Below are positions 787 through 33,333 of a stretch of 64,000 bases of DNA, piece after piece. The position numbers and the translations under genes were made by a program. The stretch covers positions 54,471-118,470 of IMG/VR virus record IMGVR_UViG_3300032313_000500; one strand, given 5' to 3'. The stretch's first letter is position 1. The number at the start of each line of letters is the position of its first letter. Source of the DNA: a virus. Under the pieces are notes generated by a model. The model searched no databases. It worked only from the letters and a program-made list of their open reading frames with translations, and was not told where the DNA came from.

Positions 787-2145
787 ATGTCAGACCAAGC
801 AAGACTTACAGAATTGCAATCCGCCCTTCGCGCCAAGATGGCCGATAACAAGGCAATTGCAGACTCATTCCGCATTGAAGAAGGAACCGTTGTTGTCAAC
901 GCTCAGCAAAAGAGCGCATTTGATAAGAACATGACCGACATCAAGGAAATCAAGGGACTCATTGAGGGCCTTGAGGCAATGAACACCGTTGACCAATGGG
1001 GCTCACAGGCTCCAGCAGAATCAGTTGCTGCTGCTGCAGCCGCTGGCTACTCTCTCAAGAGCGTCTACGGCTCACAGAGCATCGGTGACCTCTTCCTCGC
1101 TTCACCAGAGTTCAAGACCCTTTTGGGTGGCAAGAATGGCGCAAACATGCCTTCCCCATTCCAACTCGGAGCATCACTCACCACTCATGGCGCATTCAGC
1201 GTTAAGGACGTTTACTCGGCACTTCCATCAGGCACATTGGGCCGTGGTGCAGATGCTCAGTTCGGTTCAATCCAGCGTGACCCAATGGTCATGTCACCAC
1301 AGCGTGTAAAGCGCGTTCGTGACTTGTTCCCAAGCCGCACCACAACTGCTGCAGTTATTGAATACTTCCGTATGCTCGGTTTCACCGCAACAGGCGGCGG
1401 AGTCAACAATGCAGGAACAGTTGCTGAGCGTAACGCCGGAAACACAAACTTTGCTGCCAAGCCACAGTCCTCAATGGTATTTGAAGGCCACCAGGCCCCA
1501 GTACGTACCATTGCTCACTGGGAAGCAGCACACCGTAACGTCCTCGCAGACGAGCCACAGTTGCGTTCAATCATTGACAACGAATTGATGTACGGTCTCC
1601 GTCTTCAAGAAGATGCTCAAATCCTCAACGGTGATGGCTCTGGCGAAAACCTTACTGGTGTTCTTCAGACTTCCGGTATCCAGAACTACTCATGGTCCAG
1701 CGGTTTGTACTCAGCAACTGCAGGAATGTCAGACACAAAGGCAGACGCAATCCGTCGCGCCGCTACTCTGTCGTTCTTGGCTTACTACGAGCCATCTGGT
1801 GTCGTTCTTCACCCGAACGATTGGGAAGACATTGAGTTGACCAAGGATGGCAATGGCCAGTACCTCGTTGCAGTTTCGGTTGCAATGGGTGGCGAGCCAA
1901 AGGTATGGCGTTTGCCGGTCGTTGAGACTCCTGCAATCCCAGAAGGCACCGCACTTGTCGGCGCATTCGGTACGGGCGCACAGTTGTATGACCGTGAGCA
2001 GGCTTCAATCCGCATCTCAGAGCAGCACTCGGACTTCTTCGTTCGCAACGCAATCGTTGTACTCGCAGAACAGCGCCTCGCCCTTGCGGTTAAGCGCCCA
2101 GAGTCATTCGTCAAAGTTACATTTGACAACGCTCCAGCAGCCTAA
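787..2145 (+). CDS. phage major capsid protein, HK97 fold
   Basis: This 452-residue protein builds the icosahedral head shell. Residues 1-60 are a helical, coiled-coil-like segment resembling the delta (scaffold) region of HK97-type capsid proteins; the body from about residue 95 onward has the usual order of an HK97 coat protein, with an E-loop-like region, a P-domain helix near the segment NELMYGLRLQEDAQILNGDG, and a C-terminal A-domain ending in ALAVKRPESFVKVTF. AGGAG lies about 8 bases before the ATG. A strong terminator follows directly. No separate protease gene is visible in the window, so it must lie upstream or be absent. Confidence 0.92.
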   Translation: MSDQARLTELQSALRAKMADNKAIADSFRIEEGTVVVNAQQKSAFDKNMTDIKEIKGLIEGLEAMNTVDQWGSQAPAESVAAAAAAGYSLKSVYGSQSIGDLFLASPEFKTLLGGKNGANMPSPFQLGASLTTHGAFSVKDVYSALPSGTLGRGADAQFGSIQRDPMVMSPQRVKRVRDLFPSRTTTAAVIEYFRMLGFTATGGGVNNAGTVAERNAGNTNFAAKPQSSMVFEGHQAPVRTIAHWEAAHRNVLADEPQLRSIIDNELMYGLRLQEDAQILNGDGSGENLTGVLQTSGIQNYSWSSGLYSATAGMSDTKADAIRRAATLSFLAYYEPSGVVLHPNDWEDIELTKDGNGQYLVAVSVAMGGEPKVWRLPVVETPAIPEGTALVGAFGTGAQLYDREQASIRISEQHSDFFVRNAIVVLAEQRLALAVKRPESFVKVTFDNAPAA

Positions 2146-5371: not shown

Positions 5372-7414
5372 TTACTGGTTGTCTTTAATAAATTTTATTT
5401 CGCATGAATCCGTTGTGCAGTAAGACTCCCCGATTGCATCGGCAGCCATTCCTGCATATACGCCCGTGAAGTCAATAGGAAATAATGATTTACCTGCCTC
5501 TTCATAGACGCTCTGCTCTATCTGTGTGTACGGCATTTGCGGATAGGTGAAGTTTCCTTGGGGCAAGAACGACACAGTCTTTAATTGACCGTCATACATG
5601 TGGAGTACGGTGCCGATGTGTTCTTTTTCTTTCTCTGCGTCAAAGGAAATCGTAACTGACACCGAGTTGTCCGACCAGTAGCGTTGTGCAACTGCTGCTA
5701 GTGACATCTTTTCAAAGATTGTTACGTCCTTTTCGGAGCGACGTGCGTCTGACTTGATTGGGAAGAACACAACAGAGGTCGTCTCAGGCGATTCAGAGGC
5801 AGGCTCAACTCTGTAGTTGGCCATCTTGAACAGCGGAAGCATTGGGTCGTCGTTAGAGAACCGGATTGCTCTGTCAAAATACTCACCACCTGGAGTCCAA
5901 TGAACCCCAGGAGACTCGCCGGCGAGAATTGAAACAGTTCCCGAAGGCTTTACTGTTGTCATCTTGATTGATTCACGAATTCCAAGCCACTCAGAGTAAG
6001 AAACGTCATAATTCTTTACTGTGTTGTACCCAGTGTCCATCCATTCACGAAGAACTGGCATTCCTACACGGTCAGCGAAGTTAGCAACACCGGACATTGA
6101 AGTACCGATGCGACGATTGCGTTGCATGATTGCGTTTGTCTCTTCCCAGTGGGTAGGAAGAAGCGTTACGGTCTTTGCGTAGAGATATGCAAACTTCAAG
6201 GTTCGCTTGTAGTCATCTAATGAATCGTGACGATTGAGGTATGTCTCCACGAGAGTACAGCACTCATATGACTCAAGAGATTGTTCTGCACATGGGTTAT
6301 ATCCAGCAACACGCCAGTCTTTGTTGTTTGCAGGGTCTGCAAGACGGCCGTATTTACGAGACATATCAAGCCAGATGACTCCTGGCTCTCCATTGAGAGC
6401 GATTCCGTCAACAATCTTGGAAAGGTCTTTACCTACAGAAGTTTCTACAGAGTTGTTGGACATCCAACCCCAACCGAGAGATTCTGGGTCGTACGAGTTG
6501 CGCGCAGGAAACACTGACGAGTTCTTTAGGTTAAGGAACTCATCGTCATCCAAACTGCCAATTAGTAATTCTGCAGAACGACGTACGTTTCCAGAAACAA
6601 CACAAACACCAATCATGTTTCCGATGTCTGCGATATCAACTTTTGTAACTAATTGACCATTGCGGTTTTTAAACATTTTTCTAATGTAGTTGTGCAGTCG
6701 CTCTAACGAAGCGTGACCAGCAGCCGTACCACCAAAAGTTTTAATAGGTGTTCCTGCAGGGCGAATTAGTGAATAATCAAAGACGATTGGTGCCTGGTCC
6801 TGCTTTAAGTAAGAGTTAATCAACATACTCACAGATGTAACCCAACCTTCTCGGCTGTCTTCAATTACTTCAGTAACTACTGGTTTTGTTGGCTCATAGA
6901 TAGTGAAATCTTTTTCTGCACCCTTGTTGTCAAATCCAACACCGACACCAAGCATTGATGCTTCCATAAGAAACGCAAAAGGCTTTGCAGGGTTGTTCTT
7001 TGTCATTTCAGATGTTGATACAAATGCACAGTTCTGTAATGCAGCAGAGTTTTTCTGAACATTGACTAACGGAGTCCCCATAACCCACAAGCCACGACCA
7101 GGTGGAGTCCACTTCAGGTTAAACAAACGGTCAAACGCTTCTTTTGCAGATGCTTGTGCTTTGGAGTCATTCCAGGGTAGACGATTTGTTTTGCAGTGGT
7201 CTTTCTGCAGGGAGTACATACCGTTGATTACGCGTTCACAAACATCTGACCATGTTTCTTTTGTTCCGTCTTCTTTTAAGCGCGAATAAGTACGCAAAAA
7301 AGTTATTTCTCCTACAGAGTTACCACCGGCATCAACATAACCAAATGGTGCTTTTCTAGTTCTGTACGAACTAATAAAATCTTCTGATAAACGGAATGTG
7401 AAAAATGAAGACAC
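5372..7414 (-). CDS. nrdJ: adenosylcobalamin-dependent class II ribonucleotide reductase
   Basis: This 680-residue enzyme converts ribonucleotides to deoxyribonucleotides for phage DNA synthesis and does not need oxygen. Length and motifs match the monomeric B12-dependent triphosphate reductase. An active-site Cys lies in LQNCAFVST (about residue 128), the radical-site loop reads NPCAEQSLESYECC (about 373-386), and the C-terminal redox pair is CTTDSC (about 664-669). The start is a GTG preceded by AGAGGA. It needs host-made or salvaged B12, and a MoxR/VWA pair elsewhere in the window could conceivably relate to cobalt. Confidence 0.95.
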   Translation of the reverse strand: MSSFFTFRLSEDFISSYRTRKAPFGYVDAGGNSVGEITFLRTYSRLKEDGTKETWSDVCERVINGMYSLQKDHCKTNRLPWNDSKAQASAKEAFDRLFNLKWTPPGRGLWVMGTPLVNVQKNSAALQNCAFVSTSEMTKNNPAKPFAFLMEASMLGVGVGFDNKGAEKDFTIYEPTKPVVTEVIEDSREGWVTSVSMLINSYLKQDQAPIVFDYSLIRPAGTPIKTFGGTAAGHASLERLHNYIRKMFKNRNGQLVTKVDIADIGNMIGVCVVSGNVRRSAELLIGSLDDDEFLNLKNSSVFPARNSYDPESLGWGWMSNNSVETSVGKDLSKIVDGIALNGEPGVIWLDMSRKYGRLADPANNKDWRVAGYNPCAEQSLESYECCTLVETYLNRHDSLDDYKRTLKFAYLYAKTVTLLPTHWEETNAIMQRNRRIGTSMSGVANFADRVGMPVLREWMDTGYNTVKNYDVSYSEWLGIRESIKMTTVKPSGTVSILAGESPGVHWTPGGEYFDRAIRFSNDDPMLPLFKMANYRVEPASESPETTSVVFFPIKSDARRSEKDVTIFEKMSLAAVAQRYWSDNSVSVTISFDAEKEKEHIGTVLHMYDGQLKTVSFLPQGNFTYPQMPYTQIEQSVYEEAGKSLFPIDFTGVYAGMAADAIGESYCTTDSCEIKFIKDNQ

Positions 7415-7802: not shown

Positions 7803-7874
7803 GCCCCTGTCGTCTACTGGTTAGGACGCGACTCTTATAAGGTCGTTAAGGTGGTTCAATTCCACCCAGGGGTA
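7803..7874 (+). tRNA. tRNA-Ile (anticodon TAT)
   Basis: A complete cloverleaf can be folded: acceptor GCCCCTG/CAGGGGT, D-stem GTCT/GGAC, anticodon stem CGACT/GGTCG with loop CTTATAA, T-arm GGTGG-TTCAATT-CCACC, discriminator A. CCA is not encoded. Anticodon TAT reads the AUA codon, rare in many actinobacteria but frequent in this phage. Confidence 0.9.
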
Positions 7875-8510
7875 CTAGTAGAAAATCTGAAGATGAAAGC
7901 CTAAGTTATTGATTGCTTCTGCTGCTTCATCTTCGTCTTTTTCATTGACAATGTATTGCTCCATTACAGTCTTGTATAAAAGTGCTGGATAACTCTTGTC
8001 ACGCAGTGTTCTTACTGCCCCATCCGGGTAAACGGTAATTGGCTTGAAAATCATTCTGTTTTTTGCCAAGTATTCGTAAGCAATGGAAACGAGGGTTAGT
8101 TCCGCTCCGCCCATCTCGTCGTTTTCTGCATGGGTTACGGTTATACACTCGCTTACACCGGTAGTTTCATCAAGAAACGCTTTCTGAAGGTCAAGTCCTC
8201 TTGTTTTTTCCACGTCCGGAGAACAGTAACCCTCTGCCACCATTGAAATACTGTCAATATCCCAAAAACCTTTAAGAATCCCAAGCATCGCTGCGCATCT
8301 TTGGAGCCTGTCTATTGGCTTTTCTTTCATGTGCTTCTGGCTCAACTGGACAATGGCTAAAACTTTGCCTTCTTTCCATCCAATAAAATTGAACGCCAAA
8401 TCTTCCCCGACTCCTGCTTCACTAACAAAACCCTGTTTTGCTAATTGAGCAGACGTCAAGGCTAATGCTATTTTTGAAAATTCGTCTGGGTATAAATCAT
8501 CCACGCCCAC
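7875..8510 (-). CDS. unknown protein of 211 residues
   Basis: No family is recognised. The protein has mixed alpha/beta character, with segments such as EDLAFNFIGWKEGKVLAIVQL (residues about 37-57) and a long helical middle. It begins with GTG at 8510, and a second in-frame GTG lies 6 bases downstream. It is convergent with tRNA-Ile, ending one base after it, and divergent from the H1-like gene. Confidence 0.6.
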   Translation of the reverse strand: MGVDDLYPDEFSKIALALTSAQLAKQGFVSEAGVGEDLAFNFIGWKEGKVLAIVQLSQKHMKEKPIDRLQRCAAMLGILKGFWDIDSISMVAEGYCSPDVEKTRGLDLQKAFLDETTGVSECITVTHAENDEMGGAELTLVSIAYEYLAKNRMIFKPITVYPDGAVRTLRDKSYPALLYKTVMEQYIVNEKDEDEAAEAINNLGFHLQIFY

Positions 8511-9820: not shown

Positions 9821-9821
9821 G

Positions 9822-9894
9822 TGCCCTTGGTTGGATTTGAACCAACGACCTGCGGATTAGAAGTCCGTTGCGCTATCCACTGCGCCACAAGGGC
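9822..9894 (-). tRNA. tRNA-Arg (anticodon TCT)
   Basis: On the minus strand: acceptor GCCCTTG/CAAGGGC, D-arm GCGC/GCGC, anticodon stem ACGGA with loop CTTCTAA, T-arm GTTGG-TTCAAAT-CCAAC, discriminator A. It reads AGA, a codon used often in this phage. Confidence 0.92.
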
Positions 9895-10561: not shown

Positions 10562-11155
10562 TCACTGTTCCAGCCAGTTCTTTTTAATCCACTTAGCGAT
10601 GAATTCAGCACGCAACTGAGAACCCGTAGAGCCGTAATGGACTTTATCTGGATTCAACAAATGCTGCCTAGTTTGGATAAATCTATCCCAGCCAATGACG
10701 TGCATATTGATATTCCTACCAGCCTTCTTTTCAAGCATAGAGTTCCACAGTCTGGCTGACTTGTTGTTGTGGTTGCCCCAGCCCTTCCATATGGAAACCC
10801 AAGCAACCTTCCTACCTTTTAGTTCGTTCATGACTGCAGACACCCTGTTGCCAGTGTTTTCGTACTTGTATGAAGGCGAATCGTTCGTACCGAGCGCAAT
10901 TACCCAACAAGCGTCTTTATCAACGCGCTTTTTGTAGTACCTAACCGCTTCCAAACCCGTATGAGGGTCGTTTGGCATCTTCGTAAATACGGACCTGCTG
11001 CCAGCGGCTGAAATTATGGCGTCAGGGAAACCGATTTTTTTATATTCAGCGACCTGAAACTGTTTTGAGTGCACCGTTAAAGAATCTCCGATGTGGACCA
11101 CGTTTGAACATGTCCCAGGAACATTCATGAGTAGGGAGAACAAAAGACTATACAT
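10562..11155 (-). CDS. SGNH/GDSL hydrolase-like protein
   Basis: The 197-residue protein shows the SGNH blocks: VVHIGDSLTV (about residues 20-29, nucleophile Ser), AAGS (about 53), ALGTNDS (about 89-95) and the terminal D-x-x-H in NPDKVHYGSTG. Such enzymes remove acyl groups from polysaccharides or lipids, so an action on cell wall or envelope polymer is possible. The short hydrophobic N-terminus (MYSLLFSLLMNV) may be a signal or anchor. ATG at 11155 overlaps the end of the upstream phosphoesterase gene. Confidence 0.75.
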   Translation of the reverse strand: MYSLLFSLLMNVPGTCSNVVHIGDSLTVHSKQFQVAEYKKIGFPDAIISAAGSRSVFTKMPNDPHTGLEAVRYYKKRVDKDACWVIALGTNDSPSYKYENTGNRVSAVMNELKGRKVAWVSIWKGWGNHNNKSARLWNSMLEKKAGRNINMHVIGWDRFIQTRQHLLNPDKVHYGSTGSQLRAEFIAKWIKKNWLEQ

Positions 11156-11642
11156 ATCTATCAAGTACCTTTTCTAATAGGATTGGCTTGTAACCAGTCT
11201 GCTCAACGCTTACGCACTGATACCAGGGGTCTGGAAGGGATTCGGCGTGCAAATGTCCGTGAATATTGCCTCTATAGCGATATTTCTGGTGGTCAGAGAC
11301 TGGAATGTGAGTTAAAACAAACTTGTTGTACGAAAAAGTGCCCATGATGTCATAAAAGTAGGGGGTATAAACGCTTAAAGGAAGTCTATCGTGATTGCCC
11401 TTTATTAATAATTTCCTACCATGTAAGAACCGCATCGTTTTGACACCTTGCTTGTCTATGGCAACATCACCAAGGTGGATAACCTCATCCTTGGGGCCTA
11501 CCGTCTCGTTCCACAACTGAATCATCTCTTCGTCCATCTCTGAGGCACTATCCCACGGACGTAACTTGTCGCCGTGCTTGGCTGAGAACTCGCAAATGCG
11601 TTGATGTCCCCAATGAGTGTCGGCTGTAACGAATATTGACAT
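11148..11642 (-). CDS. calcineurin-like metallophosphoesterase
   Basis: A 164-residue enzyme with all main motifs of the family: TADTHWGH (about 6-13), HLGDVA (about 56-61), IKGNHDR (about 80-86), LTHIPVS (about 111) and NIHGHLH (about 127-133). These bind two metals. Small phage enzymes of this type hydrolyse phosphodiesters or nucleotides; the substrate is unknown. GGAG precedes the ATG. It forms a two-gene unit with the SGNH protein. Confidence 0.88.
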   Translation of the reverse strand: MSIFVTADTHWGHQRICEFSAKHGDKLRPWDSASEMDEEMIQLWNETVGPKDEVIHLGDVAIDKQGVKTMRFLHGRKLLIKGNHDRLPLSVYTPYFYDIMGTFSYNKFVLTHIPVSDHQKYRYRGNIHGHLHAESLPDPWYQCVSVEQTGYKPILLEKVLDRYV

Positions 11643-11805
11643 ATCTCCATCGTACCGGGAAGAAGTAGGAACTCAAACGTTTTGTATGGATTTATCCAAT
11701 AGTGGATTAGGCTTCAAAATTTATCGTGTGCCCCCCCACGCGCGCCCGACCCGTTCAGAAAAAAGCCCCGAGAATCGCCTTACGGGGTCCGAAAACGACC
11801 ACTTA

Positions 11806-11935
11806 TAGTAGTTATCCACACCCTGTGAATACCACCCTCTGTGGTTGTCCACACCCTGTGGATAAAGGTCAAAGCGAACACATGTACGACGAACACCTGT
11901 ACGCACGAACACATGTACGACGAACACATGTACCC
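11806..11935. other. candidate replication origin: DnaA boxes and iterons
   Basis: A perfect DnaA box TTATCCACA (11812-11820) and an inverted one TGTGGATAA (11857-11865) flank two imperfect CACCCTCTGTGG-type repeats. They are followed by four direct repeats of about 15 bp, consensus CGAACACATGTACGA, at 11875, 11890, 11906 and 11921, each centred on the palindrome ACATGT. The region from 11643 to 12119 has no gene. DnaA boxes plus iterons are the standard make-up of plasmid and some phage origins; the spot could also be an operator for the giant gene downstream. Confidence 0.6.
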
Positions 11936-11948
11936 ATCACATAAACAC

Positions 11949-11977
11949 TTGACAAAACATTACGAAAGTGCTAGTCA
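11949..11977 (+). promoter_or_regulatory. candidate promoter for the giant gene
   Basis: -35 TTGACA, 17-base spacer, weak -10 TAGTCA, 143 bases before the GTG at 12120. The CACATCACAT sequence repeats three times (about 11935, 11980, 12060) around it. Confidence 0.45.
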
Positions 11978-12119
11978 ATACACATCACATGACGTTATAC
12001 CTGATTGTAGATAATGCCTCATGACCCACACAAAAGTGCTCCTCACAAGCACACTTTTACACATCACATAAGTCGCATCAAACTATTAGTTACACACACT
12101 TCACACACCACACAGTGAG

Positions 12120-15100
12120 GTGTTCTACAATGAGTCAATGCCTTTCTCTTATGACATAGAACCAAATGACTCACCACGTCTAAGGCGTCACATGTCAAGA
12201 GTAAATAGTGATGACAGACTAGAAGTCAAAGCACTAGGTCCGAACCTAGGGCAACTCGCACGAAGCGCACAGGTCTTTGACCCTAACGCATACGACGGTG
12301 ACGGTGATGGTGTAGTACAAGACGGCACACCCTTTGAGAGACCAGCAGTGTTGTCTAACATTGCCTCAGTAGCACGAGGACTCGCAAGCACCACGGGTGG
12401 CTACGGGTCATACACACCAAGAGGTTCGTGGACAGTAGGTCTCACCAATGAACAGGTAGCAGAGAGGGCAGTGCCTAGCACGCCTGCTGCTTTCGTTGAG
12501 ATGATGGTCGCTCAACAAGGCTCCACGGGTAACCTATCTGACAGTGTGCAGAAGGCACTAGACATAGCAATCTTTGACGAGGAGAGGGTCGCTGAACTAC
12601 GTGACACATTGCGTAACGCACTAGACGAAAGACCTGAACTACGAGCAGCCTTTGATAGGTTCGGTTGCCCACCCATAGGTGTACACCCCAACAAAGACGA
12701 GGATGGAGAAGGTATTGGATATGGAGGTATCGCTTATGGTAAGCAAGCAATCTTCATAACAGAAAAGACACTAGACAAAGGCGCTATGTCAGAATGGTTT
12801 GGTAGAAGGAAGTTCTCTGCGAAAGTATTCTCCTTCACTACATTCGCACCAAGAGTAAAAGGTGTTGACCGTGCCTTCACAGGGGAATCAGCAGAAGACA
12901 TCATCACCCATGAGTGGGGTCACTACCTCAATCACCTAGTAGCAGACATAGCACCAGACCCAGAACTGCGTGAGTTAGCAGGAGCCCTAGGGCAAGGCTC
13001 TTGGTACATGTCAACTTACTTCACTCGCATTCCTCCAAAAGTGAAGAGGATGTTTGAGTACTTTGATGGAGCCATGAAGAGTGGTGAGAAGGTAGACCAA
13101 CCAGTTGGTGTTCCATTCGTCAAGAGCGTGTATGGCACCTCAATGCCATGTGAGTTCTTCGCAGAATCAGTAGCAGCATACTTCTCCCCTCGTCGTAAGA
13201 GTAGAGAACTACTCAACGATGAAGGAATAGAAATAGTTGAACAAATGCTTGGCATTAGAGGAGCATCTCGCAGTGGATTCGCATCACGAACAGGTTCTCT
13301 AAAAAGCAGTACGGGTAGTACCCTGCGTGGTAAGACACCACAAGAGATAGCAGACATTGTAGTACCCAAGACAAAAGCAGAAGCAATCGCATTGTCTGAC
13401 GCACACAACGCTTTACTTACAGACCCAGATGGTGTTCGTTACACGGCATCAGAACCAGACAAACTAAAAATAATTATCCCCAAGGGTATTGACGCTATGG
13501 ACTTCTCACCCGAAGCAGTGTCTCGTATGAAAGAGATGGTCGTAGAAGCACTCTCAAATAACCCTGAGTTCCATGAAGCAGTACAAAGATTTGGTATGCC
13601 ACCTGTTCTGATAACAAAGCCAGGCGAAAGACTGGATGGGGCGTACGCCATTGCTGGTGTAGAGGGTTTCCCTGCTATCACTATTGACTCAACAATGAGA
13701 GAACAAGCATTGGCCAAAGGGTGGTGGCCTAATGGTATTTACGAAGATGAACCATTCATCAAAGGGACAGAGGGCTTCTCTACAAGTCCCACGAGTGAAG
13801 GATTCTTTATTCATGAATGGGCTCACTACCTCAATCGCCTAGCATTAGACATACACCCAGACGAAGAGATGAGAGAATTAGCACGCTTTTGGTGGAACGA
13901 CACTTGGATACTAAATGCAGCCATTCCTAGGCTTACGAGATTTCTAAGGGGATTAGGTAAACCAAAAACACGAATAGATGCTAGATACAGGGGCGCTGAT
14001 AAATTCTATTGGGCAACACGTGACAACAAATCCGTTGACTTTACGGGTTACCCACACGTAAAGACACAGTATGGACAGTCACAACCAGCAGAAGCGTTTG
14101 CCGAAGCAGTAGCAGCAGTACTCTCCAAAGATGTTGACGACAAAGAGTTGGTCAGTCCTGAAATGCGTAGAGATGTTCTTGACATGCTTGGTTTCTCACC
14201 TTCGGTCAAAGAGATAGACAGAGCAGGCAGTTCAGAGGGTAGAGGTAGTGGGTTTGCCTCAAAGACTGTCACCAGAGGACCTGATGGCACGAGAATTATT
14301 AACACATCTGACCCTTTCACACCGTTGAGTGGTTCTGATTGGCTAAAAGACGCTACGGATGACGAGGTAGCAGATGCTGTAACGCCTACGAGTATTGATG
14401 ACGCAATAGCGCTTACGATAATGAATACGTCATACGGGGACGACCCAGCAAATTACCCAGCAGAAGAAGCAAAAGTACGTCAAATAATGACGGACCACAT
14501 CTTCAAGTTTTACGGTAGGGACAGCAATGGGCAAATAGCAACAGACGCAAACGGGAAGCCCATTAGTTTCTCTGTTCCTTACGATTTTTCTCCACAAGGC
14601 AGACAAACAGTCAAAGACATGGTCAAAAGAATGATGGCAGAGTCGCCAGAATTCTCATGGATGATTAGACGCTTCGGGTGTCCACCAATGATGGTTATAG
14701 ACGAAGCAAAACTCACCCAACTAAACAATCAGGTTGAACAAATGCGTCTTGCTGGTCAAGACATCTCTCTTCCGTTCCATCTCGCAAACGGAGCAGTCGG
14801 TGGTTTTTCGGTAGGTACTTACGGGATAACACTCAGGCCTGACCCCACAACAGACAACTTACCAATGGGATTTTACAGAGGGTTGGCAGCAAAAAGAAAG
14901 ACTGGAAGGATAATCACAAATCCTGACGGAAGCAGGGAAGAAGAAAAAGAACACTGGATGAACAACTTCGGACTATCCCTAGCCGATAAGGCTATTCACG
15001 AATGGGCTCACTGGTTCTACGCAACCGTAAAAGGAAACAAAGGACTACTAGGTAAGTCACGCAGGGGAGATAGAAAATCTCGTCTTTCCTACTTGTTCCC

Positions 15101-18100
15101 TGGTATTCCTATGGCAGATGCTGAGAAAATGACAAAAGAGTTCCTTGACGCTTTTGACGCAGACGGTTTCATACCTTTCAACGGCATGAGTGCGCAATAT
15201 CTTGAAAGAATAATGACGACAGCACGAAGAAGCATCAATAGAAACCTAGGCAACAAACCACTAACGGAACAGTTACTTGCCGACGCAAGATTCGTGGACC
15301 TAATCAACGACTATGTGAATAATGTAATCAACGCCCCTAATGATTGGTCTCCCTCGCAGGCACAGGAATTCGCCGACCAGATAGCGATTGAGTTTCCTTA
15401 TCTAGTAGATGACATGCCACCACTTATTGCTGGAACATACGCAACAGCAACTCGTCAAGAACTATGGGCAGAAGCAATACTTTTGTTCTCCTCACCAGAC
15501 AGAAAGTTAAAGGCTAAGTACCTAACGCCAGAGATAGAAGCATTTATTGCTTACGCGTTAGGGTTGAAGCCAGACAGAGACCCAAGTACTCCTTATCAAA
15601 AACCGTGGGCACATCGTAGTGGTTTGTCATCCTCTTCACGGGTGAGGAGATTACACGCAGCGCAAGACAGCATAGATGAAAGAGTCTCCGACAAGGACGA
15701 CGGGTTCGCTAGTAGAAATGCCGGCGATGCTAAATCAACAACAGTAAAGATGTCTCGTGAAACATCTAGTACGTCACGATTTACGGTTGGTGACTACGAG
15801 TTTGACATAACAGATGAAGATTTGTCTACTTATGATTGGGATACTGCTTACGACCAGTGGACAACTTGGTCGGGCAACTGGCGCATGCGTCATTTGTCGT
15901 CAGCAATGATGGGTATAGAACAGCAACCCACAAAGGGTGGCGAAGAGTCGCTATCAACAGTCCACGAAGTAATGCGCTCGGGTGAACTGCTAGACGCACC
16001 TAACCATGTAAAAGACTCCGTTCGTGAATCACTGATAAACACACATAAGACGATGGAAAAAATCTCTATGGGTGACACAGTTAGCGATAGACCGTTGTAC
16101 CGAGGACTTGGTTCAGTTCCTGATGATTCAGAGATACTGATGGCAGAACAGGGTGAGACAATAACGTTCCCACTTAGCGCGTTCACCCCAGACAGAGGAT
16201 TAGCCACAACATTCGCCGACATGAATGCCGAGAGCGACAAAAAAGTAATCCTCCAACTTCAAAATGGTGCCCATGTAGCGTCTAGTGACTACACAACACA
16301 GATAAGAGACCTAGAAAGCGACTGGGTAGAAGTACCAATTGAGTCCGTTACCCAAGGAGAGTTCACTGTCGTATCCAAGCGTGAGCAAGACGGGTACACG
16401 GTTGTAGAACTATCGCACTCTAAGACGTTTGACCCACTATCAGGAAAGATGGTTGACACGAACGTTCGTGAGGGGTTCGCTTCTTCCAGCATGAGACCAG
16501 AGCGACGGGTATCCGATAGCGCTATCCGTACGCTTACAGACAACATGGACTTCCTACGAGATAACCCACCAATGGGTAAGGGTGGCAAAGACCTAGACGA
16601 CCGTTGGGCAGAGCAGACGATAGGAAAACTTCGCAGTGGCGAGATAACTCAGGAGGATGCGTTTGACCTAATGAATGCTGTCATTGAGATACTCAGCGAC
16701 GGGTTCAGTAAAGACCCAAGCCAAAAAGAGAATCCAGAAGGAAAACTTCTCGCCTATCAAAAACTCGTAAAGCGCTTACGCAAACTTGCTGTTGGTGGCA
16801 TGAGCAAAGACGACATGGACGACCTCCGTAGAGAGCAGGGAATCATCCCTACTGTCACCAACAAGCCAAAGCCGACTCCTTATGCTGGTGGTCGTTTCGG
16901 CTTCTCTTCCACAACAAGAAGAGAAGAACTATCTACTCGTGCGCAAGAACGTATTGACGCCATTGACGCACAGGTAGAAGAACTTGAATCATTCAACCGA
17001 CGTCTAATGAGAGCAATCAGTGAACTTCAAGCCACGGGCAACTGGGAAGGCGAGAAGCACGACGTTTTCCTCAAAGAGGGCAACAGTCCCAAGACCTACA
17101 CTAAGGAGCAATTGGAAAGCAACGGATGGACACAGAGAGTAAGGGAAGAATCAGCAAGGGCTCATCTTGATAGAGAAATGTATGTAAATAGTCTAAAAAG
17201 AGAGAGAAACGACCTTGAAGATAGTCAAAAGCGTCTTGCTGGTGAATATCCAGAAACAACAATGCTTGTTGACGAGTTACTACTTGACGAAGACAATGTA
17301 GAGAGCATCTTGGCGAGGTCGTTAGAAGTTGATTCAATGAGCCAACAACAAAGAGCAGAAAGATTCACCGACCCCAATGACCCTAACGCAGTGTATGTGG
17401 TTCATTTTGGAGCGACCAAACTAGAAGGTGGTCAGTTGGACCCTTCTCGTTCACGAGGACAGGTTGGACAAGGTATCGCTGGGAATACTCGCCAGATAAA
17501 TGACGAGACAGCCAGATATATGGTCGGATTGCGTGATGATGCGAAGCGGGACCTATCCATCCTTGAAGAGATGAAGCGCCAGATTGAGACTGATGGCGTG
17601 ATTGACTTTGACGCAATCGCACGAACCGACACTAGAGACTCCTTCCGGGCAGGGAGGGCAAGACTACTGCTCGGTCTAAATCGCCGTGACCCAGAACGCT
17701 CAACACATATACCAGAAGGCTGGCAGGTTTCCAATATTGACGGCGCTATCGGAGATAAAAACAACGTCATATCTAGACTTGACAAGGTTGCCGACCAGTT
17801 GATTGCAGACGACTATCAATACACGAGTACATACAGGGCGTCAGCATTGCAAGACCTACTCGGCTCGTATGGAGGAAGATACGCAGAGGGCGACTCTACG
17901 GAATGGGGCGACAACGCAAGGCGCTCAACAACTACTGGTATCCATATCTTTAAAGTAAGAATAGGTGATGACGCAGTTGAGCAGAACAGCGTTGGAGAAA
18001 CTCACCTAGTTGGCAAACACACTCCAATCGCTTCACTCGTTGTAGACAGTAGCGCTAACGACGACAATCCTGCTCGTGAAATCTGGAAGGGTTGGCTTGA

Positions 18101-21100
18101 TTCGGTAATTGAACAAGACATTGGTAAAAACAATGCACGTCGCTCAGGATTTGCTTCCAGGGCTTCCGTAAGAGAGTCATCACGGGTTATCGGAGAAGAC
18201 GGAGATGCTAGCAAGCCTTCAATACTCGGAAGAGCAAAAGATAAACTAAAACTAAACGATAGACAAGTCGGTCATATTAATTCAATGACCAACAAGATGC
18301 ACTCAATCTTTACTAGTGGAAAAATTTACGATGAACCAATCCATCCAGCAATTGATGACAGAAGAAAAGAACTGCTTGATTCAATAAGGGTTGTAAGAGC
18401 AGAGGGTGGAATGACGATGATTGTCGCCGAACCAAACCCAGTATTTAATGCTTATTTGCCAGTAAAGAGAGACTGGGCGTCTATTGAACTACCGTCCCGC
18501 GAAGCAGTTGCCGAGGCAATAGAGAAATTGAAATCAAACAAAGGAGGCAGGCGCTCGGACACTTATGGCTCGGGTGCATTTACGGACCATCTTGAATCAT
18601 TGCTTCAAGAGATAGGGAAGTTGGGTGAAGGTCCAGGAGACCTTCCGTACGAGGGAGGAGAAGGAAACTACATATCCTATGTTCAGCAATACTACGACTC
18701 AATAAGAAACCCTGTTGGTGCTTCACGTCTGCTCCAAGGTAGCGATGGAATGCATGATGCGTTCGGACACTTTGGTACAGGCAGAGGCTACGACAGACAT
18801 GGGGAGTGGGCTAACTATCTAGCAATGAAAGACATGATAGACGCATCGCCACTTACTGACGAAGAGAAAGAAGATGCTCATAGATTCTGGTTTAGAGAGT
18901 ATGGGTGGCTTCAGTTCGCAAAACGTGGAGACCTAGAAGAAGTAGACGATAATTTACGTTTCATGGCAGACGACTATGACGGACCGTTCAGTGACATTTT
19001 GGAAATCATTGACTCTGGTCACAACGGTCTTGACGACGTACCAGAAGAAGAAACACCTTCAGGCAAGACCATCTCAGATACTTCAGCGTCAGAACTGAGA
19101 CAAGCAGCAAGAAACGACGCTGAGGCACAACTAGAAATGAGTCGTAGTGGGTTCTCTAGTACAACGAGAGACACGGGTAGAAACAGAGAAGTTTCTGCTG
19201 AATACACACAGGGCATATTCGGCAAACTAAAAGCCCTTAAAGAGCGACTTGGTTACGGAAAAGACTTTGAAGAAAAAGTAAGCAAAGAAAAACTTGACAC
19301 CAGAATAGAAGAAACAGCCGCTTATGCCAAGCGCATCATTGACTGGGATGCTGGAAAAGACGTCGTACTGCCTCAAAGTGCTATTGATTACATAAAAGAC
19401 GTAGTTGCAAGAAACGCTTTCTTTACTTCAGACAAACGTGCTGATGGTGGTGCGAGTTTGATACCCATACAGGCGGCACTTAGTAAGTCCTCTCCTGACG
19501 TATGGCCAATAGGAACCCCGTTGCCCCCAAGTTTGGCATTAGAGATATCAAGACAAATACATATCGCTAGAGGCGATACTGAAATGGTCGCAAAAATTGA
19601 TGAGTTTAAAAATTACTTAAAAACAGTCACTCCAGAACAATTGAGCGAAGACATAAGAGCAGCGTCTTTAGTATATGGCGAGTCAATTGACAAGCGTGTT
19701 TTGGTTAGAACGAGAAGCGTAAACCCTTTTATTAAAGGAAGTCGCACCATACTTACTCAGCACGACAGGGAAGAACGAGAAGCGGCTGGCGTTGAGTCTA
19801 TGAACATGATGGGTGACGGCATTACTACAAGCGCAAGAAGGAAAGTTGAAGCAAACCTTTTAGGTCTACCATTTGAAGAAGGGGTAGAAGACTCTCCAGA
19901 AGTAAGGGAACTAAGACCAACGTCTGGCTATGTAACCACTTCAAAAACAGCATTGGCACGAAAAGAAAAGTTTAAAGAAATTTACGGCGACGATGTTGAA
20001 CTAATGTATGACGGTCCTGCTGGAACAGCGCTAGAGCATTCTCAAAACAACACCGGGAAGTATGGTCCCTCGCAGTTTGTGCTGCGCCCAGCAGTTGCCG
20101 AGCGCACAAGGGTTTTTGATGCAGACACAGTAGATATGTCATTGAAAGACAACCCCCCTCTACAACTTAGTGCCCTTGAAGAAGACGGCATTTTTCTTGG
20201 TGGCACCACCAACCCCATCGGAATGCTTTACGACTACAAGACTGGTGACACTTATCCAACGCCTTCTGGAGCATTTGAGGGAAGTTCCGACACTCATTCA
20301 AGTCAAGGAACTGCAGCAAGTTACAAAGAAGCATTGGTTCTTGGAAGGTTCAAGCCCGAAGAAGTTGAAGCGATAATTGCCGCACCAGCAGACTTTAGAA
20401 AAGAAGACGGAGAATTATCCGAAAGACTTAATCCAAATAACGAAGCAAACTTCAGCCTATTGATTGATATGGCGCGTTCACGTGACGAACTAATGCAAGA
20501 ACACGGCATAGAGGTTGTTCCCAATATTAGAAGAGGTGTATTCAAAACCGATGACGTTGAGATGTTTAACCCAGCAATGACTGACGTGTGGTTTGATACG
20601 AACTTTGCAGATAAGGGCTTATCAAAAGAAGAAATAGTTCCAGACAAATCAACTACACCATACGAAGCGTACCTAAGAGTATTAATAGCAACAGGAGAAC
20701 TTCCTGAAATGTTTGAATACCGTGGTCCTAGTGGTAAGAGCGAAGAAGAGAAAGATGCTTGGAAGAGGGATGCGCTCAAGAAAGAACTCGCTAGAGTAGT
20801 AAGCCTCAAGAAAGACAAAGAAGTCAGCGGCACTCGTAGTCCCGGCTTCTCTTCTCGTTCGTCAAGAGCATCTGCAAAGAAAATAACCAAGAATTTCAAG
20901 GTAAACGGCAAGCCTCGCAAGGCTCCAGTTGACAGAGATGAACTCATACGACGTGCTGTCCCTCAGAACGCAGCCGACATGATGAGAATCATTGAAGAGT
21001 CTCCATACATGGAGGGCAAGAAGAGCAAACAAGAAATCTATGAACTCATCAACATGATGGACATAGATTGGGTAGCCCAACAGAAGATGCGTCTCAAACT

Positions 21101-21758
21101 TGAGAGAGTATTGATGGATTCACCTGCATTTGAAGAACTTCTCAATGAATACGACATACCCCTGATGATTATTACAAAATCAGGAGTTGCTAAATATGCC
21201 GGAGGCACAGGCACTTTGTATCCCAACTCGGACAGGTGGAGAAACATTGAGGGCGAGTACATGACGGAATACGGTTTTATCGCATTTCCCGCACGTGTAG
21301 TTGACCAAGAAACAGTGAACAATGCCGTAAGTGATGGACCGCTACCGACAGATGACATTATCCGTCACGAGTTGTCTCACACTATCCACGCTATGGCGAT
21401 GGCTCAGAGTAAAAAAGCCCGCAAGAAGTACGAGGCCGACATTGCTGAATTTATTGAGAGAATGGAAGACGCTATTGACTACGCGGAACGGTCAGGCGCT
21501 ACGGAATTTGACATGAGGTCAGTCACTATGGACCCAGTAGACGATGCTCTCGCAGGAGAAATAAGTAGATACGCGCAGTCCAAGAGGGCCGAATACATCG
21601 CTGAACTGCTCACCCACATGCTTCCGGGCAAAAGAACCAAATATGTCTCACTTAAAGACGAGCACTTTAAGATGCTCTCAGAGTTTCTTGATATTCCAAT
21701 ACCTAGACTACGTGAACTGTACAATAAATCAATGGACAATAGGGCAGGGTGGCTGTAA
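12120..21758 (+). CDS. giant modular protein with four HExxH modules and an ADP-ribosyltransferase-like module
   Basis: This 3,212-residue protein is a string of nine modules. A DGDGDGVVQDG Ca-binding-like loop lies at about residues 56-66. HExxH zinc-peptidase motifs are HEWGH (264), HEWAH (565), HEWAH (960) and HELSH (3083), each followed 80-150 residues later by a Glu-rich helix such as FFAESVAAYFS that could give the third zinc ligand. A module near 1320-1410 has the YRGL and FTPDRGLATTFA blocks of ADP-ribosyltransferases. Near 2200 lies a HDAFGHFGTGRGYDRHGE block. The joints carry a repeated SGF[AS]S motif at about 384, 709, 1194, 1451, 1592, 2008, 2342 and 2906. A polyvalent effector carried in the virion or a polyprotein is likely. 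Start is GTG 12120 or ATG 12138. Confidence 0.85.
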   Translation: MFYNESMPFSYDIEPNDSPRLRRHMSRVNSDDRLEVKALGPNLGQLARSAQVFDPNAYDGDGDGVVQDGTPFERPAVLSNIASVARGLASTTGGYGSYTPRGSWTVGLTNEQVAERAVPSTPAAFVEMMVAQQGSTGNLSDSVQKALDIAIFDEERVAELRDTLRNALDERPELRAAFDRFGCPPIGVHPNKDEDGEGIGYGGIAYGKQAIFITEKTLDKGAMSEWFGRRKFSAKVFSFTTFAPRVKGVDRAFTGESAEDIITHEWGHYLNHLVADIAPDPELRELAGALGQGSWYMSTYFTRIPPKVKRMFEYFDGAMKSGEKVDQPVGVPFVKSVYGTSMPCEFFAESVAAYFSPRRKSRELLNDEGIEIVEQMLGIRGASRSGFASRTGSLKSSTGSTLRGKTPQEIADIVVPKTKAEAIALSDAHNALLTDPDGVRYTASEPDKLKIIIPKGIDAMDFSPEAVSRMKEMVVEALSNNPEFHEAVQRFGMPPVLITKPGERLDGAYAIAGVEGFPAITIDSTMREQALAKGWWPNGIYEDEPFIKGTEGFSTSPTSEGFFIHEWAHYLNRLALDIHPDEEMRELARFWWNDTWILNAAIPRLTRFLRGLGKPKTRIDARYRGADKFYWATRDNKSVDFTGYPHVKTQYGQSQPAEAFAEAVAAVLSKDVDDKELVSPEMRRDVLDMLGFSPSVKEIDRAGSSEGRGSGFASKTVTRGPDGTRIINTSDPFTPLSGSDWLKDATDDEVADAVTPTSIDDAIALTIMNTSYGDDPANYPAEEAKVRQIMTDHIFKFYGRDSNGQIATDANGKPISFSVPYDFSPQGRQTVKDMVKRMMAESPEFSWMIRRFGCPPMMVIDEAKLTQLNNQVEQMRLAGQDISLPFHLANGAVGGFSVGTYGITLRPDPTTDNLPMGFYRGLAAKRKTGRIITNPDGSREEEKEHWMNNFGLSLADKAIHEWAHWFYATVKGNKGLLGKSRRGDRKSRLSYLFPGIPMADAEKMTKEFLDAFDADGFIPFNGMSAQYLERIMTTARRSINRNLGNKPLTEQLLADARFVDLINDYVNNVINAPNDWSPSQAQEFADQIAIEFPYLVDDMPPLIAGTYATATRQELWAEAILLFSSPDRKLKAKYLTPEIEAFIAYALGLKPDRDPSTPYQKPWAHRSGLSSSSRVRRLHAAQDSIDERVSDKDDGFASRNAGDAKSTTVKMSRETSSTSRFTVGDYEFDITDEDLSTYDWDTAYDQWTTWSGNWRMRHLSSAMMGIEQQPTKGGEESLSTVHEVMRSGELLDAPNHVKDSVRESLINTHKTMEKISMGDTVSDRPLYRGLGSVPDDSEILMAEQGETITFPLSAFTPDRGLATTFADMNAESDKKVILQLQNGAHVASSDYTTQIRDLESDWVEVPIESVTQGEFTVVSKREQDGYTVVELSHSKTFDPLSGKMVDTNVREGFASSSMRPERRVSDSAIRTLTDNMDFLRDNPPMGKGGKDLDDRWAEQTIGKLRSGEITQEDAFDLMNAVIEILSDGFSKDPSQKENPEGKLLAYQKLVKRLRKLAVGGMSKDDMDDLRREQGIIPTVTNKPKPTPYAGGRFGFSSTTRREELSTRAQERIDAIDAQVEELESFNRRLMRAISELQATGNWEGEKHDVFLKEGNSPKTYTKEQLESNGWTQRVREESARAHLDREMYVNSLKRERNDLEDSQKRLAGEYPETTMLVDELLLDEDNVESILARSLEVDSMSQQQRAERFTDPNDPNAVYVVHFGATKLEGGQLDPSRSRGQVGQGIAGNTRQINDETARYMVGLRDDAKRDLSILEEMKRQIETDGVIDFDAIARTDTRDSFRAGRARLLLGLNRRDPERSTHIPEGWQVSNIDGAIGDKNNVISRLDKVADQLIADDYQYTSTYRASALQDLLGSYGGRYAEGDSTEWGDNARRSTTTGIHIFKVRIGDDAVEQNSVGETHLVGKHTPIASLVVDSSANDDNPAREIWKGWLDSVIEQDIGKNNARRSGFASRASVRESSRVIGEDGDASKPSILGRAKDKLKLNDRQVGHINSMTNKMHSIFTSGKIYDEPIHPAIDDRRKELLDSIRVVRAEGGMTMIVAEPNPVFNAYLPVKRDWASIELPSREAVAEAIEKLKSNKGGRRSDTYGSGAFTDHLESLLQEIGKLGEGPGDLPYEGGEGNYISYVQQYYDSIRNPVGASRLLQGSDGMHDAFGHFGTGRGYDRHGEWANYLAMKDMIDASPLTDEEKEDAHRFWFREYGWLQFAKRGDLEEVDDNLRFMADDYDGPFSDILEIIDSGHNGLDDVPEEETPSGKTISDTSASELRQAARNDAEAQLEMSRSGFSSTTRDTGRNREVSAEYTQGIFGKLKALKERLGYGKDFEEKVSKEKLDTRIEETAAYAKRIIDWDAGKDVVLPQSAIDYIKDVVARNAFFTSDKRADGGASLIPIQAALSKSSPDVWPIGTPLPPSLALEISRQIHIARGDTEMVAKIDEFKNYLKTVTPEQLSEDIRAASLVYGESIDKRVLVRTRSVNPFIKGSRTILTQHDREEREAAGVESMNMMGDGITTSARRKVEANLLGLPFEEGVEDSPEVRELRPTSGYVTTSKTALARKEKFKEIYGDDVELMYDGPAGTALEHSQNNTGKYGPSQFVLRPAVAERTRVFDADTVDMSLKDNPPLQLSALEEDGIFLGGTTNPIGMLYDYKTGDTYPTPSGAFEGSSDTHSSQGTAASYKEALVLGRFKPEEVEAIIAAPADFRKEDGELSERLNPNNEANFSLLIDMARSRDELMQEHGIEVVPNIRRGVFKTDDVEMFNPAMTDVWFDTNFADKGLSKEEIVPDKSTTPYEAYLRVLIATGELPEMFEYRGPSGKSEEEKDAWKRDALKKELARVVSLKKDKEVSGTRSPGFSSRSSRASAKKITKNFKVNGKPRKAPVDRDELIRRAVPQNAADMMRIIEESPYMEGKKSKQEIYELINMMDIDWVAQQKMRLKLERVLMDSPAFEELLNEYDIPLMIITKSGVAKYAGGTGTLYPNSDRWRNIEGEYMTEYGFIAFPARVVDQETVNNAVSDGPLPTDDIIRHELSHTIHAMAMAQSKKARKKYEADIAEFIERMEDAIDYAERSGATEFDMRSVTMDPVDDALAGEISRYAQSKRAEYIAELLTHMLPGKRTKYVSLKDEHFKMLSEFLDIPIPRLRELYNKSMDNRAGWL

Positions 21759-22381
21759 AGATGATACCTAAATCAGAAGACGACATGAATGCCGTAGACA
21801 TTTATGACTTACAAACAATGCTTGCTTCCGTTGATGACTCTGAAACCCAACAGAGAATCATTTCACTGATAGACAAACTTTCGTCATCAGCCCCTTCTCG
21901 TGAAACAGTAAGAGGCAAGTCGGTTCAGTGGGTAGACCTAGCAACAAAGTCGTTCGTACTGGATGCCCCGTCATTTGACATCAAGTCCCTGAACTACACA
22001 ATGCCCGAAGTGCGTGAAAGAATCAAGAACCGTATTATGGCTGGCGACAAGGGTGGCAAAGCAGGTCAATGGTCTGCTCGCAAGGCGCAACTACTCGCTA
22101 TGGAGTATCGTAAAGCAGGTGGTGGCTACAAGGGTGGTCTACGCAAGACCCAGCGTTCGCTCAAGAAGTGGACACGAGAGAAATGGACAACATCAGATGG
22201 CAAACCAGCGATTCGTAAAAACGGCACTCGTCGCTACCTTCCTTCTTCTGCTTGGTCTCGTCTTACGCCAGCACAGAGGACAGCGACGAATCGTAAGAAA
22301 ATCATCGGAAGTCGGCAAGGCAATCAGTTTGTTGCAAATACACGAAGTGCAGAGAATGCTTCGCGCAGAGCAAGAGACTGA
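21749..22381 (+). CDS. DUF5872-domain protein
   Basis: A 210-residue protein whose C-terminal 120 residues are very basic and carry the DUF5872 pattern: KGGKAGQWSARKAQLL, GGGYKGG, SLKKWTREKWTT, RYLPSSAW, LTPAQRTATNRKK. The domain is widespread in large viruses and phages and probably binds nucleic acid, but its role is not established. The GTG start overlaps the end of the giant gene by 10 bases, implying coupled expression; ATG at 21761 is an alternative. Confidence 0.72.
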   Translation: MAVKMIPKSEDDMNAVDIYDLQTMLASVDDSETQQRIISLIDKLSSSAPSRETVRGKSVQWVDLATKSFVLDAPSFDIKSLNYTMPEVRERIKNRIMAGDKGGKAGQWSARKAQLLAMEYRKAGGGYKGGLRKTQRSLKKWTREKWTTSDGKPAIRKNGTRRYLPSSAWSRLTPAQRTATNRKKIIGSRQGNQFVANTRSAENASRRARD

Positions 22382-30860: not shown

Positions 30861-32774
30861 TCAAACACCTTTTCTGAATAATCCCATCAGCAGTTCACCC
30901 AACGAGTCGGCTTCAGCGGCGGGACCCCCGTCCACGGCTTGATTGACCACGCCACGCTTGCGCTCAATGAGTGAATAAATCTCCTCGTCAATGGTTCCAT
31001 CACACAACAAATAAGTTGCGGTGACGGAAGACTTCTGTCCCAACCTATGACAGCGACTGTAAGTTTGGTCAATGTCAGCGGGTGTCCACGGAAGTTCTAC
31101 GAATAAAACGTCTTGTGCGACTTGCAGGTTATGCCCCGTCTTCGCTGCTTGGATTGAGAGAACGATGACTGGTGCTTCTTCACATGGCAATGTCATAAAC
31201 TTGTGCTTCTGCGCTTCTATCTCGTTGATGTCCATTCCCCCTTGGATGCGCAAGTTACCGAACGCAAGTGCGAGTTCATCCACTACATCCCTGTGGTGGG
31301 CAGCGATGACGACTTTGCGTCCTTCGGCTACGCGGGACTCAACCCATTCTTTGATAACGGGCATTTTTGCTTTTGCTGACAAGCGACGCAGAACAGAAAG
31401 GCGAACTAAGTGCTGGTTTGACTCTGCTTTGATTTTGGCAACAACAGCAGCAGAGTTTGGATTCAGTCCAAGTTCCAGTGCTATCTCTTTTGCTCGTTGG
31501 ACAAGGTACTCAATGATGTCAGTTTCGGCTTTTCTGTATTCTTTCATTCCGGCCGCAGTCCCGTCAACAAGCACGGGGTCGTGAACAACAGGGGGTAGGT
31601 CGGATAAAACTTGTTCCTTTGTGCGCCGAATGTAACAAGTTGAGCGAAGTAAGTCATTTAGTTCATCAAGATTGCTATGTCCATCAAGATGCCATTGGCC
31701 CCACTTGTCTTTGAAGGCCCCGCAATAGCGTCTGTAGAAACCCCACTCTCCTCCGAACTTATCTAACTTTCCAAGAATGTTTAGTTGGCTTGCGTACTCG
31801 GCTGGTCGGTTGGTAACTGGAGTTCCCGTCAAACACAGAACAATTCCTTCTTTCGGGGCTGACCGTGCGATTTTCACGGCACTCTTAGTTCGCTGTGCTG
31901 TTGGCGTCTTGCAATAGTGACTTTCGTCAAAAACATACGACCTGTGGTTTGAGAGTTGTTTTTCCCACTTATTAAGGTTAGAATAACTAATAACGACTAC
32001 ATCATAATCAGAAGGAAACTCTTTACGGTCTTTTACGACTGCGACCTTCTTGTGTGGGAGCCACCTGTTGTATTCTGCTTTCCAGTTCAACACGAGTGTG
32101 GCGGGACAGACAACAACGGCTGGATAAGAGTCGTACACATACTCCAATGTCGCAATGGCTTGCAATGTTTTTCCCAAGCCCATCTCGTCTGCAATGAAAG
32201 TACGCCGTGCATTACTTGCGTAAGCAACCCCTGCTCGTTGATACGGCAGTAACGTTCCCGTCAGTCCCGTCACTTCAATCTCAGCATCAGTGAGTCGTGA
32301 TGCTTCTCTAAGTTCCGAGAGCGATGTGTCTACTGCTTTGAGCATTTCACGAACTTCGTCAGGAACCTGTTGTTTGAAAGTGTCACCCCACTTCACGACA
32401 TCGGCGATGCTGGTAACCGGGGCTCGCCATGCCATCGTCTTCTTGTCCCAAGTAACTCCTGCTACCTGTTTGACTGACTGAATCATCACTCTGTCGTAAC
32501 CAAAGGACATTGTCAGCCATTTGCCGTCGTAGTTGATGCCCCGTGCTTCGTTCTTATGAGAGGGCAATGTAAACAAGAGGACTTCGGGGTCAATGTCAAA
32601 GTCGTTGTCCTGTGCGAACTGCCTTGCTTCTTCCAGACTCGCCATCGGGGCTCGCCAGACACGGGAAACCTTGTCCCACTTCGCCCCTTTTATCTGTTTG
32701 ACTTTTGCTACCTCGCCTATGTCGTAAGGAAAGTCAAGAACTAGGTGGTCATCGTCAAGGCTGAGTTTTTTCAC
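30861..32774 (-). CDS. SNF2-family helicase-like ATPase with two HARP-like repeats
   Basis: A 637-residue DNA translocase. The N-terminal 125 residues hold two related repeats (VKQIKGAKWDKVSRVWRAP and VKQVAGVTWDKKTMAWRAP), like the HARP domains of SMARCAL1. The ATPase core has ADEMGLGKT (about 195-203), DESHYC (about 276) and LTGTPVTNR (about 310), and the helicase C-lobe has VIAAHHRDVVD and YSRCHRLGQKSS. The domain order is that of annealing helicases, so fork remodelling or recombination is likely. Start is a GTG 6 bases after TATGAT, so it may be leaderless. Confidence 0.9.
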   Translation of the reverse strand: MKKLSLDDDHLVLDFPYDIGEVAKVKQIKGAKWDKVSRVWRAPMASLEEARQFAQDNDFDIDPEVLLFTLPSHKNEARGINYDGKWLTMSFGYDRVMIQSVKQVAGVTWDKKTMAWRAPVTSIADVVKWGDTFKQQVPDEVREMLKAVDTSLSELREASRLTDAEIEVTGLTGTLLPYQRAGVAYASNARRTFIADEMGLGKTLQAIATLEYVYDSYPAVVVCPATLVLNWKAEYNRWLPHKKVAVVKDRKEFPSDYDVVVISYSNLNKWEKQLSNHRSYVFDESHYCKTPTAQRTKSAVKIARSAPKEGIVLCLTGTPVTNRPAEYASQLNILGKLDKFGGEWGFYRRYCGAFKDKWGQWHLDGHSNLDELNDLLRSTCYIRRTKEQVLSDLPPVVHDPVLVDGTAAGMKEYRKAETDIIEYLVQRAKEIALELGLNPNSAAVVAKIKAESNQHLVRLSVLRRLSAKAKMPVIKEWVESRVAEGRKVVIAAHHRDVVDELALAFGNLRIQGGMDINEIEAQKHKFMTLPCEEAPVIVLSIQAAKTGHNLQVAQDVLFVELPWTPADIDQTYSRCHRLGQKSSVTATYLLCDGTIDEEIYSLIERKRGVVNQAVDGGPAAEADSLGELLMGLFRKGV

Positions 32775-32826
32775 ACCCGCATCATAGCCCAGCGTTTGCG
32801 TTTGCGTGTTTGTGGGCAGACAGCAA

Positions 32827-32862: not shown

Positions 32863-32873
32863 TGGACTGTGCG

Positions 32874-33327: not shown

Positions 33328-33333
33328 AACTTC

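Follow-up and report, generated by a model that had tools for sequence, protein, structure and literature searches.

Recurrent peptide joints and a shared tag in a giant phage open reading frame, a candidate polyprotein of virion-loaded effectors

Introduction

In a bacterial virus for which environmental DNA is the sole source, one open reading frame (ORF) runs for 3,212 codons without a stop, and along its product modules that differ from each other are separated by short peptides that are very much alike. This raises the question of what reads these peptides, hereafter called joints, and what the chain that carries them is for. A sequence-only reading of this DNA had suggested that the joints were either cut or recognised by one protease or copied by recombination, and that the product was a polyprotein or a virion-carried polyvalent effector. 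The stretch of DNA analysed here (the window, 64,000 nucleotides) corresponds to bases 54471-118470 of an IMG/VR virus record of 118,470 bases. The evidence is of the sequence type throughout, and the records compared are metagenomic and possibly incomplete.

Results and discussion

Genome context of the giant ORF

The giant ORF was found to be open over its whole length, as first described, and it is placed within the structural gene block, close to the capsid gene (Table 1). There is doubt about the GTG listed as its start; an ATG in the same frame at 12138, which by eye is preceded by GAGGTG, looks better and is probably the real start, giving a protein of 3,206 aa. A Pfam search with the whole ORF matched no family, and no match to it was obtained by tblastn against cultured phages. 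The interval from the capsid gene to the giant ORF contains a gene for a B12-dependent ribonucleotide reductase (5372-7414, minus strand) and the genes of tRNA-Ile(TAT) and tRNA-Arg(TCT) (7803-7875 and 9821-9894, respectively). A small ORF (21749-22381) with a weak match to DUF5872 overlaps the stop of the giant ORF and is kept adjoining it in the relatives L005-L009; it is possible that this ORF encodes a partner or chaperone of the giant protein.

Table 1. Features in the window; positions are those of the window and residue numbers are those of the joint glycines.
Feature	Position	Strand	Remarks
Major capsid protein, HK97-type family	787..2145	+	no joint; context
Giant polyprotein ORF (candidate)	12120..21758	+	3,212 codons; likely start ATG 12138
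KALGPNLG leader motif (LG..[LI]G)	12228..12251	+	just 5' of tag
Tag FDPNAYDGDGDGVVQDGTPFERPA, DxDxDG calcium-loop-like	12276..12347	+	one per protein
Joint 1, GLAS (G87)	12378..12389	+	
M1, zincin-like metallopeptidase (HEWGH)	12390..13274	+	
Joint 2, RSGFASRTG (G386)	13275..13286	+	
M2, zincin-like metallopeptidase (HEWAH)	13287..14249	+	
Joint 3, GFAS (G711)	14250..14261	+	
M3, diverged zincin-like module (HEWAH)	14262..15620	+	
Joint 4, GLSS (G1168)	15621..15632	+	
Joint 5, GFAS (G1195)	15702..15713	+	
M4, ADP-ribosyltransferase fold	15714..16472	+	Foldseek to Vis, E 3.3e-4, probability 1.00
Joint 6, GFAS (G1452)	16473..16484	+	
M5, small helical module, no identity assigned	16485..16898	+	also in protease polyproteins of other phages
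Joint 7, GFSS (G1594)	16899..16910	+	
M6, no identity assigned	16911..18146	+	conserved in relatives
Joint 8, RSGFASR (G2010)	18147..18158	+	switch point in L007, L009
M7, conserved H[DE]xxGH...GRG[FY]DRHGE[WY]AN	18159..19148	+	
Joint 9, RSGFSSTT (G2344)	19149..19160	+	left border of module missing in L006
M8, no identity assigned	19161..20843	+	missing from L006
Joint 10, SPGFSSR (G2909)	20844..20855	+	
M9, zincin-like metallopeptidase (HELSH)	20856..21755	+	

Joints, tag and leader

Ten joints of the form G-[FL]-[AS]-S were observed in the giant ORF where 0.32 were expected, and the maximum reached in 5,000 shuffles was three, which rules out a chance motif as their origin. For comparison, G[FL][AS]S occurs twice in the 24,614 aa of those listed ORFs of the record that are below 900 aa. 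All eight joints originally reported are present, and two more had been overlooked, namely G87 (GLASTTG) and G1168 (GLSSSS). The claim that they fall between distinct modules was supported by homology boundaries and by predicted disorder, since all seven joints covered by two AlphaFold models of moderate to low confidence (mean pLDDT 64 and 54) lie in segments with pLDDT below 50 between folded parts.

Upstream of the first joint the protein carries a tag with the consensus FDxxAxDGDxDGxxQ[ED]GTxxxRP, which resembles the DxDxDG calcium loop in sequence and is common to four giant ORFs of the record, this one included. Scanning IMG/VR with the tag gave 377 related stretches in viral contigs, of which 80 were retrieved for comparison; at least one match was present in each of the 16 related records checked, and several in most. 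In 91 tagged proteins the tag occurs exactly once, with no joint upstream and 339 downstream, the first at a median of 60 residues past the tag, so the tag is the border between an N-terminal domain and the joint-separated string. This plan (N-terminal domain, one DGDGDG tag, modules parted by joints) is shared by the related viral contigs. In 77 of the 91 proteins an LG..[LI]G motif precedes the tag by no more than 45 residues; it is possibly part of a targeting leader. Two tag queries had no match in cultured phages by tblastn, a search in which low-complexity filtering may mask the tag, and a weak match suggests that PHROG 7924 is a distant relative of it.

Sister polyproteins and the S78 protease

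The same joint was found in four other giant ORFs of the record, of 2,290, 1,938, 1,098 and 1,087 aa. The first of these (record positions 31018-37890) is a polyprotein with a Peptidase_S78 prohead protease as its first domain (Pfam E 3.3e-11; PHROG head maturation protease E 1.4e-27), together with the tag and the joints. An S78 domain stands at the head of every protease polyprotein examined, and the candidate catalytic His and Ser are invariant among these domains.

The joint also appears in the tape measure protein of the record, as GGGFASRTGAGGGGFASRTGAGGG. In tape measure proteins (L010, record positions 10811-15487, minus strand, and L146-L153) the joints are matched to the lineage. Their place is a Gly-rich linker, for the most part around residues 570-620, which suggests that the reader of the joints may also act on a tail protein. 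A short recurrent motif, as would suit prohead-protease substrates, is shared by the giant ORFs and the tape measure protein, a statement that concerns the presence of the motif only.

Conservation of the joint as a peptide and its concerted change

At the invariant Gly and Ser of 24 joints of this genome, codon identity was 0.89, 0.89 and 0.28 for the first, second and third codon positions, and the Ser codons are mixed, both TCN and AGY being used. The DNA of the joints has therefore been scrambled while the peptide was kept, which excludes recent copying of DNA; of the suggestion that the joints were copied by recombination, what stands is that whole modules recombine at them, as described below.

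The consensus of 325 joints consists of basic residues followed by G-[LMF]-[RAS]-S-[RS]-[ST]. Lineages differ in the variant that they use (GFAS, GLAS, GMAS, GLRS, GMRS, GLSS, RLSS) and the tetrapeptide is uniform inside each phage: GFAS/GFSS in the window, GLAS in L032, GMAS in L037, GLRS in L066, GMRS in L071 and L092, GLSSG in L062 and RLSSG in L021. In L143, an orthologue of the giant ORF with 42% identity across the N-terminal 1,227 residues, nearly all joints are GLAS. Among 16 non-redundant protease polyproteins, the similarity of joints was 0.77 within and 0.32 between polyproteins, with a permutation maximum of 0.40. When the protease polyprotein was compared with the other tagged proteins of the same phage, similarity was 0.66 vs 0.36 (p=6e-4, 7 phages), and comparison with the tape measure linker gave 0.76 vs 0.37 at the hydrophobic position (p=0.002) and a non-significant result at the following position (p=0.07), in 8 phages whose linker sites were hand-picked, automatic classes having given 3 phages; the phages in all these tests share kinship, which makes the p values inexact. 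Even so, matched change at sites that are not homologous argues for one shared reader, and these comparisons point to a trans-acting reader that co-evolves with all the joints of a phage. The proposal that the joints are cut or recognised by one protease is thus favoured, because they are conserved as peptide rather than as DNA and change in concert in each lineage.

Modules and their exchange at the joints

An alignment of full-length copies of the zincin modules shows invariant H, E and H and invariant downstream Y/E/E columns. The zincin profile matched a gluzincin of solved structure in its helix region (E 5e-7), in agreement with what the relevant passages of Iyer et al. 2017 (PMC5512222) report on polyvalent zincins. 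M1, M2, M9 and the diverged M3 are zincin-like modules and have the HExxH motif and the downstream Glu helix of such zincins; Foldseek support is weak, as a moderately confident AlphaFold model of two of them gave no match below E 0.2. With the zincins, the ADP-ribosyltransferase fold and others, several unrelated effector domains are brought together in one chain. M7 looks, by its unusually conserved motif, like an undescribed enzyme, and no relatives of known structure were found for it; it is duplicated in L144, where a joint separates both copies. No relative of M8 was found with jackhmmer over the fetched loci.

Across the clade, 251 modules were grouped in 51 families. Among their Pfam and PHROG matches are ArdC-N accompanied by MPTase-PolyVal, zeta toxin, regions of sigma-70 and UvrD helicase, and also pentapeptide repeats, DUF3626 and a ParB-like nuclease. 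Going by these matches, such a repertoire would be the expected content of a cargo for early host takeover. The earlier suggestion of a polyvalent virion effector is well supported by the location in the structural block, the shared tag and the zincin and ADP-ribosyltransferase modules, and in the relatives by ArdC, zeta-toxin-like, sigma-factor, helicase and DUF3626 modules.

Modules are lost, replaced or relocated exactly at the joints. The relative L006 is without exactly the module between G2344 and G2909, the two joints being merged into one, while L007 and L009 have a different C-terminal end past the joint G2010, with DUF3626 in that place in L007. Moreover, in L066 and L037 the protease polyprotein contains M5, flanked by joints of the resident type. 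In total, 440 ends of homology lie within 10 residues of a joint compared with a random expectation of 182, a 2.4-fold excess in which the ends are non-independent.

What reads the joints

We favour the explanation that the giant ORF encodes a cargo polyprotein of polyvalent effectors, loaded in the virion, whose joints are cut by the phage's own S78 prohead protease, and we give it a probability of roughly 0.55. It builds on the architecture, the conservation of the joint as a peptide, its concerted change by lineage and the exchange of modules at joints, all read from the sequences compared, and on the predicted disorder of the linkers and the fact that the sister chain carries the S78 domain in cis. 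The cargo is probably made as one chain and then cut, because the joints resemble cutting sites and change together in each lineage. The N-terminal leader and the tag (LGPxLG and the DGDGDG loop) would recruit the chain into the assembling head, the remainder of the chain being independent effector domains on putatively disordered linkers with the joint R-x-G-[FLM]-[ASR]-S. As the head matures, the S78 protease, first domain of a sister polyprotein that bears this tag and these joints too, would cut the joints, and the freed modules might be ejected with the DNA to subdue the host defences and take over the cell. We infer the role of S78 as the cutting protease, and packaging, cleavage and ejection by analogy with T4 (PMC9026906), SPN3US (PMC10052503) and P1 (PMC12810830).

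Two observations weigh on the choice of the S78 protease. A site matching the joint was sought in 15 aligned major capsid proteins of several lineages and none was found, and such a capsid site is rejected; the major capsid protein is the usual substrate of a prohead protease, so its lack of the joint counts against this enzyme as the reader. That lineage-matched joints are carried by the tape measure protein, which is not an internal head protein, fits poorly with a protease restricted to the prohead. Our search of the open-access literature turned up neither a G-[FLM]-x-S specificity published for any S78 protease nor a paper on these joints.

The embedded zincin modules might themselves cut the joints of their own chain. 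Four HExxH modules are present in the giant ORF and more in the 1,087- and 1,938-aa ORFs, and processing by zincins was proposed for polyvalent proteins in the passages of Iyer et al. 2017 (PMC5512222) that deal with it. However, several joint-bearing phages of the GMRS/GLRS type, some of whose records are fragments, gave no detectable zincin part of the 1,938-aa ORF, whereas the S78 domain heads all protease polyproteins examined, and this makes processing by the zincins less likely. The zincins are, moreover, themselves cargo between the joints, lost and exchanged like other modules. We consider self-cutting unlikely.

It is likewise improbable, in our opinion, that the joints stay uncut and serve as docking motifs tying each module to a co-evolving capsid, scaffold or portal partner. 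A binding motif that is not cleaved would produce the identical signal of co-evolution, since concerted change by lineage suits any trans-acting reader, and both the joints of the tape measure protein and their lack in the capsid protein agree with docking. Nevertheless, the joints part one module from the next and never precede the tag, as separators would, docking motifs would have no need to occupy every module boundary, and no docking partner came to light.

The loss, swapping and movement of modules at joints would also be expected if these were linkers retained as recombination points for module shuffling, the peptide having no reader, but joint DNA is not conserved (28% identity at third positions, Ser codons of both families) and the peptide type is lineage-specific and common to the tape measure protein, so that we regard this as very improbable. 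Least probable of all is a host protease cutting the joints, during assembly or after ejection, with lineage differences following the hosts: it would account for one reader per lineage, and the hosts are perhaps Actinobacteria, on the basis only of the tag being present on two metagenome-assembled Actinobacteria/Acidimicrobiia contigs, but there is no candidate enzyme and the phage has its own maturation protease in cis with the joint string.

Comparison with known systems

These proteins have their nearest counterparts in several described systems. In the passages of Iyer et al. 2017 (PMC5512222) on the polyvalent proteins of phages and conjugative elements, zincin-like metallopeptidases are the commonest domain and ADP-ribosyltransferases and ArdC are also listed; the proteins were proposed to be delivered together with the DNA and released by proteolysis, the processing being credited to the zincins. 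Our proteins are similar in having many unrelated effector domains per chain, with zincins, ADP-ribosyltransferase and ArdC, and differ from the proteins as described in those passages by the joint motif, the shared tag and a prohead protease fused to the string. Phage T4 packages an ADP-ribosyltransferase (Alt) and other ejected proteins, and its prohead protease gp21 removes an N-terminal capsid targeting sequence (CTS) at L/I-X-E (PMC9026906). An ADP-ribosyltransferase cargo, an N-terminal targeting sequence and a short protease motif have their likely counterparts here; however, the T4 cargo is encoded by separate genes, and the T4 motif is acidic and occurs in the T4 capsid protein as well, unlike the joint, which is missing from the capsid protein of the present phage. 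In the giant phages SPN3US and phiKZ (gp245/gp175) a prohead protease with an AXE motif trims abundant ejected proteins whose propeptides are multi-site (PMC10052503), but there the sites are used for trimming propeptides rather than for parting effector modules, and the motif differs. The antirestriction protein DarA of P1 is loaded in the head, trimmed by the prohead protease Pro and co-ejected with the DNA; in contrast to the present case, the P1 proteins (DarA/DdrB) are separate, and repeated joints are not reported in the passages on them (PMC12810830; PMC5512222). The S78 capsid maturation proteases of three cultured actinophages, Gordonia phage GMA6, Brevibacterium phage Cantare and Streptomyces phage Gilgamesh, have a homologous N-terminal domain (about 37-45% identity), but these proteins have 417-641 aa and are without tag or joint string.

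RNA viruses make polyproteins; to our knowledge, this is not usually reported of tailed phages. We tentatively suggest, at a little under even odds, that an uncultured and widespread clade makes its injected arsenal as true polyproteins, with a prohead protease as the first domain of one of them, a joint that is a cleavage signal evolving in concert across the polyproteins and the tape measure protein of each lineage, and modules that can pass from chain to chain by taking on the joint in use there. Provided that the joints are indeed cleavage sites, the clade would use a polyprotein strategy for virion cargo and would hold a record of protease-substrate co-evolution over many lineages, with a specificity legible from sequence alone. 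Moreover, unannotated phage effector sequence amounting to thousands of residues could then be divided into separate domains by splitting at the joint of each lineage, and tag and joint might provide a modular system for loading proteins into phage heads.

Other features of the sister ORFs

The 1,938-aa ORF and a 673-aa ORF (record positions 39261-45077 and 46046-48067; L012) have in common, by eye, a Cys-containing element CPxG...RFT...C. The 2,290-aa ORF contains at residues about 1581-1784 (L011:15758-16369) a module of 200 aa that is kinase-like by eye only; its relatives are found in the cultured phages DSL-LC01, Sixama and ST4, some of them annotated as ADP-ribosyltransferase.
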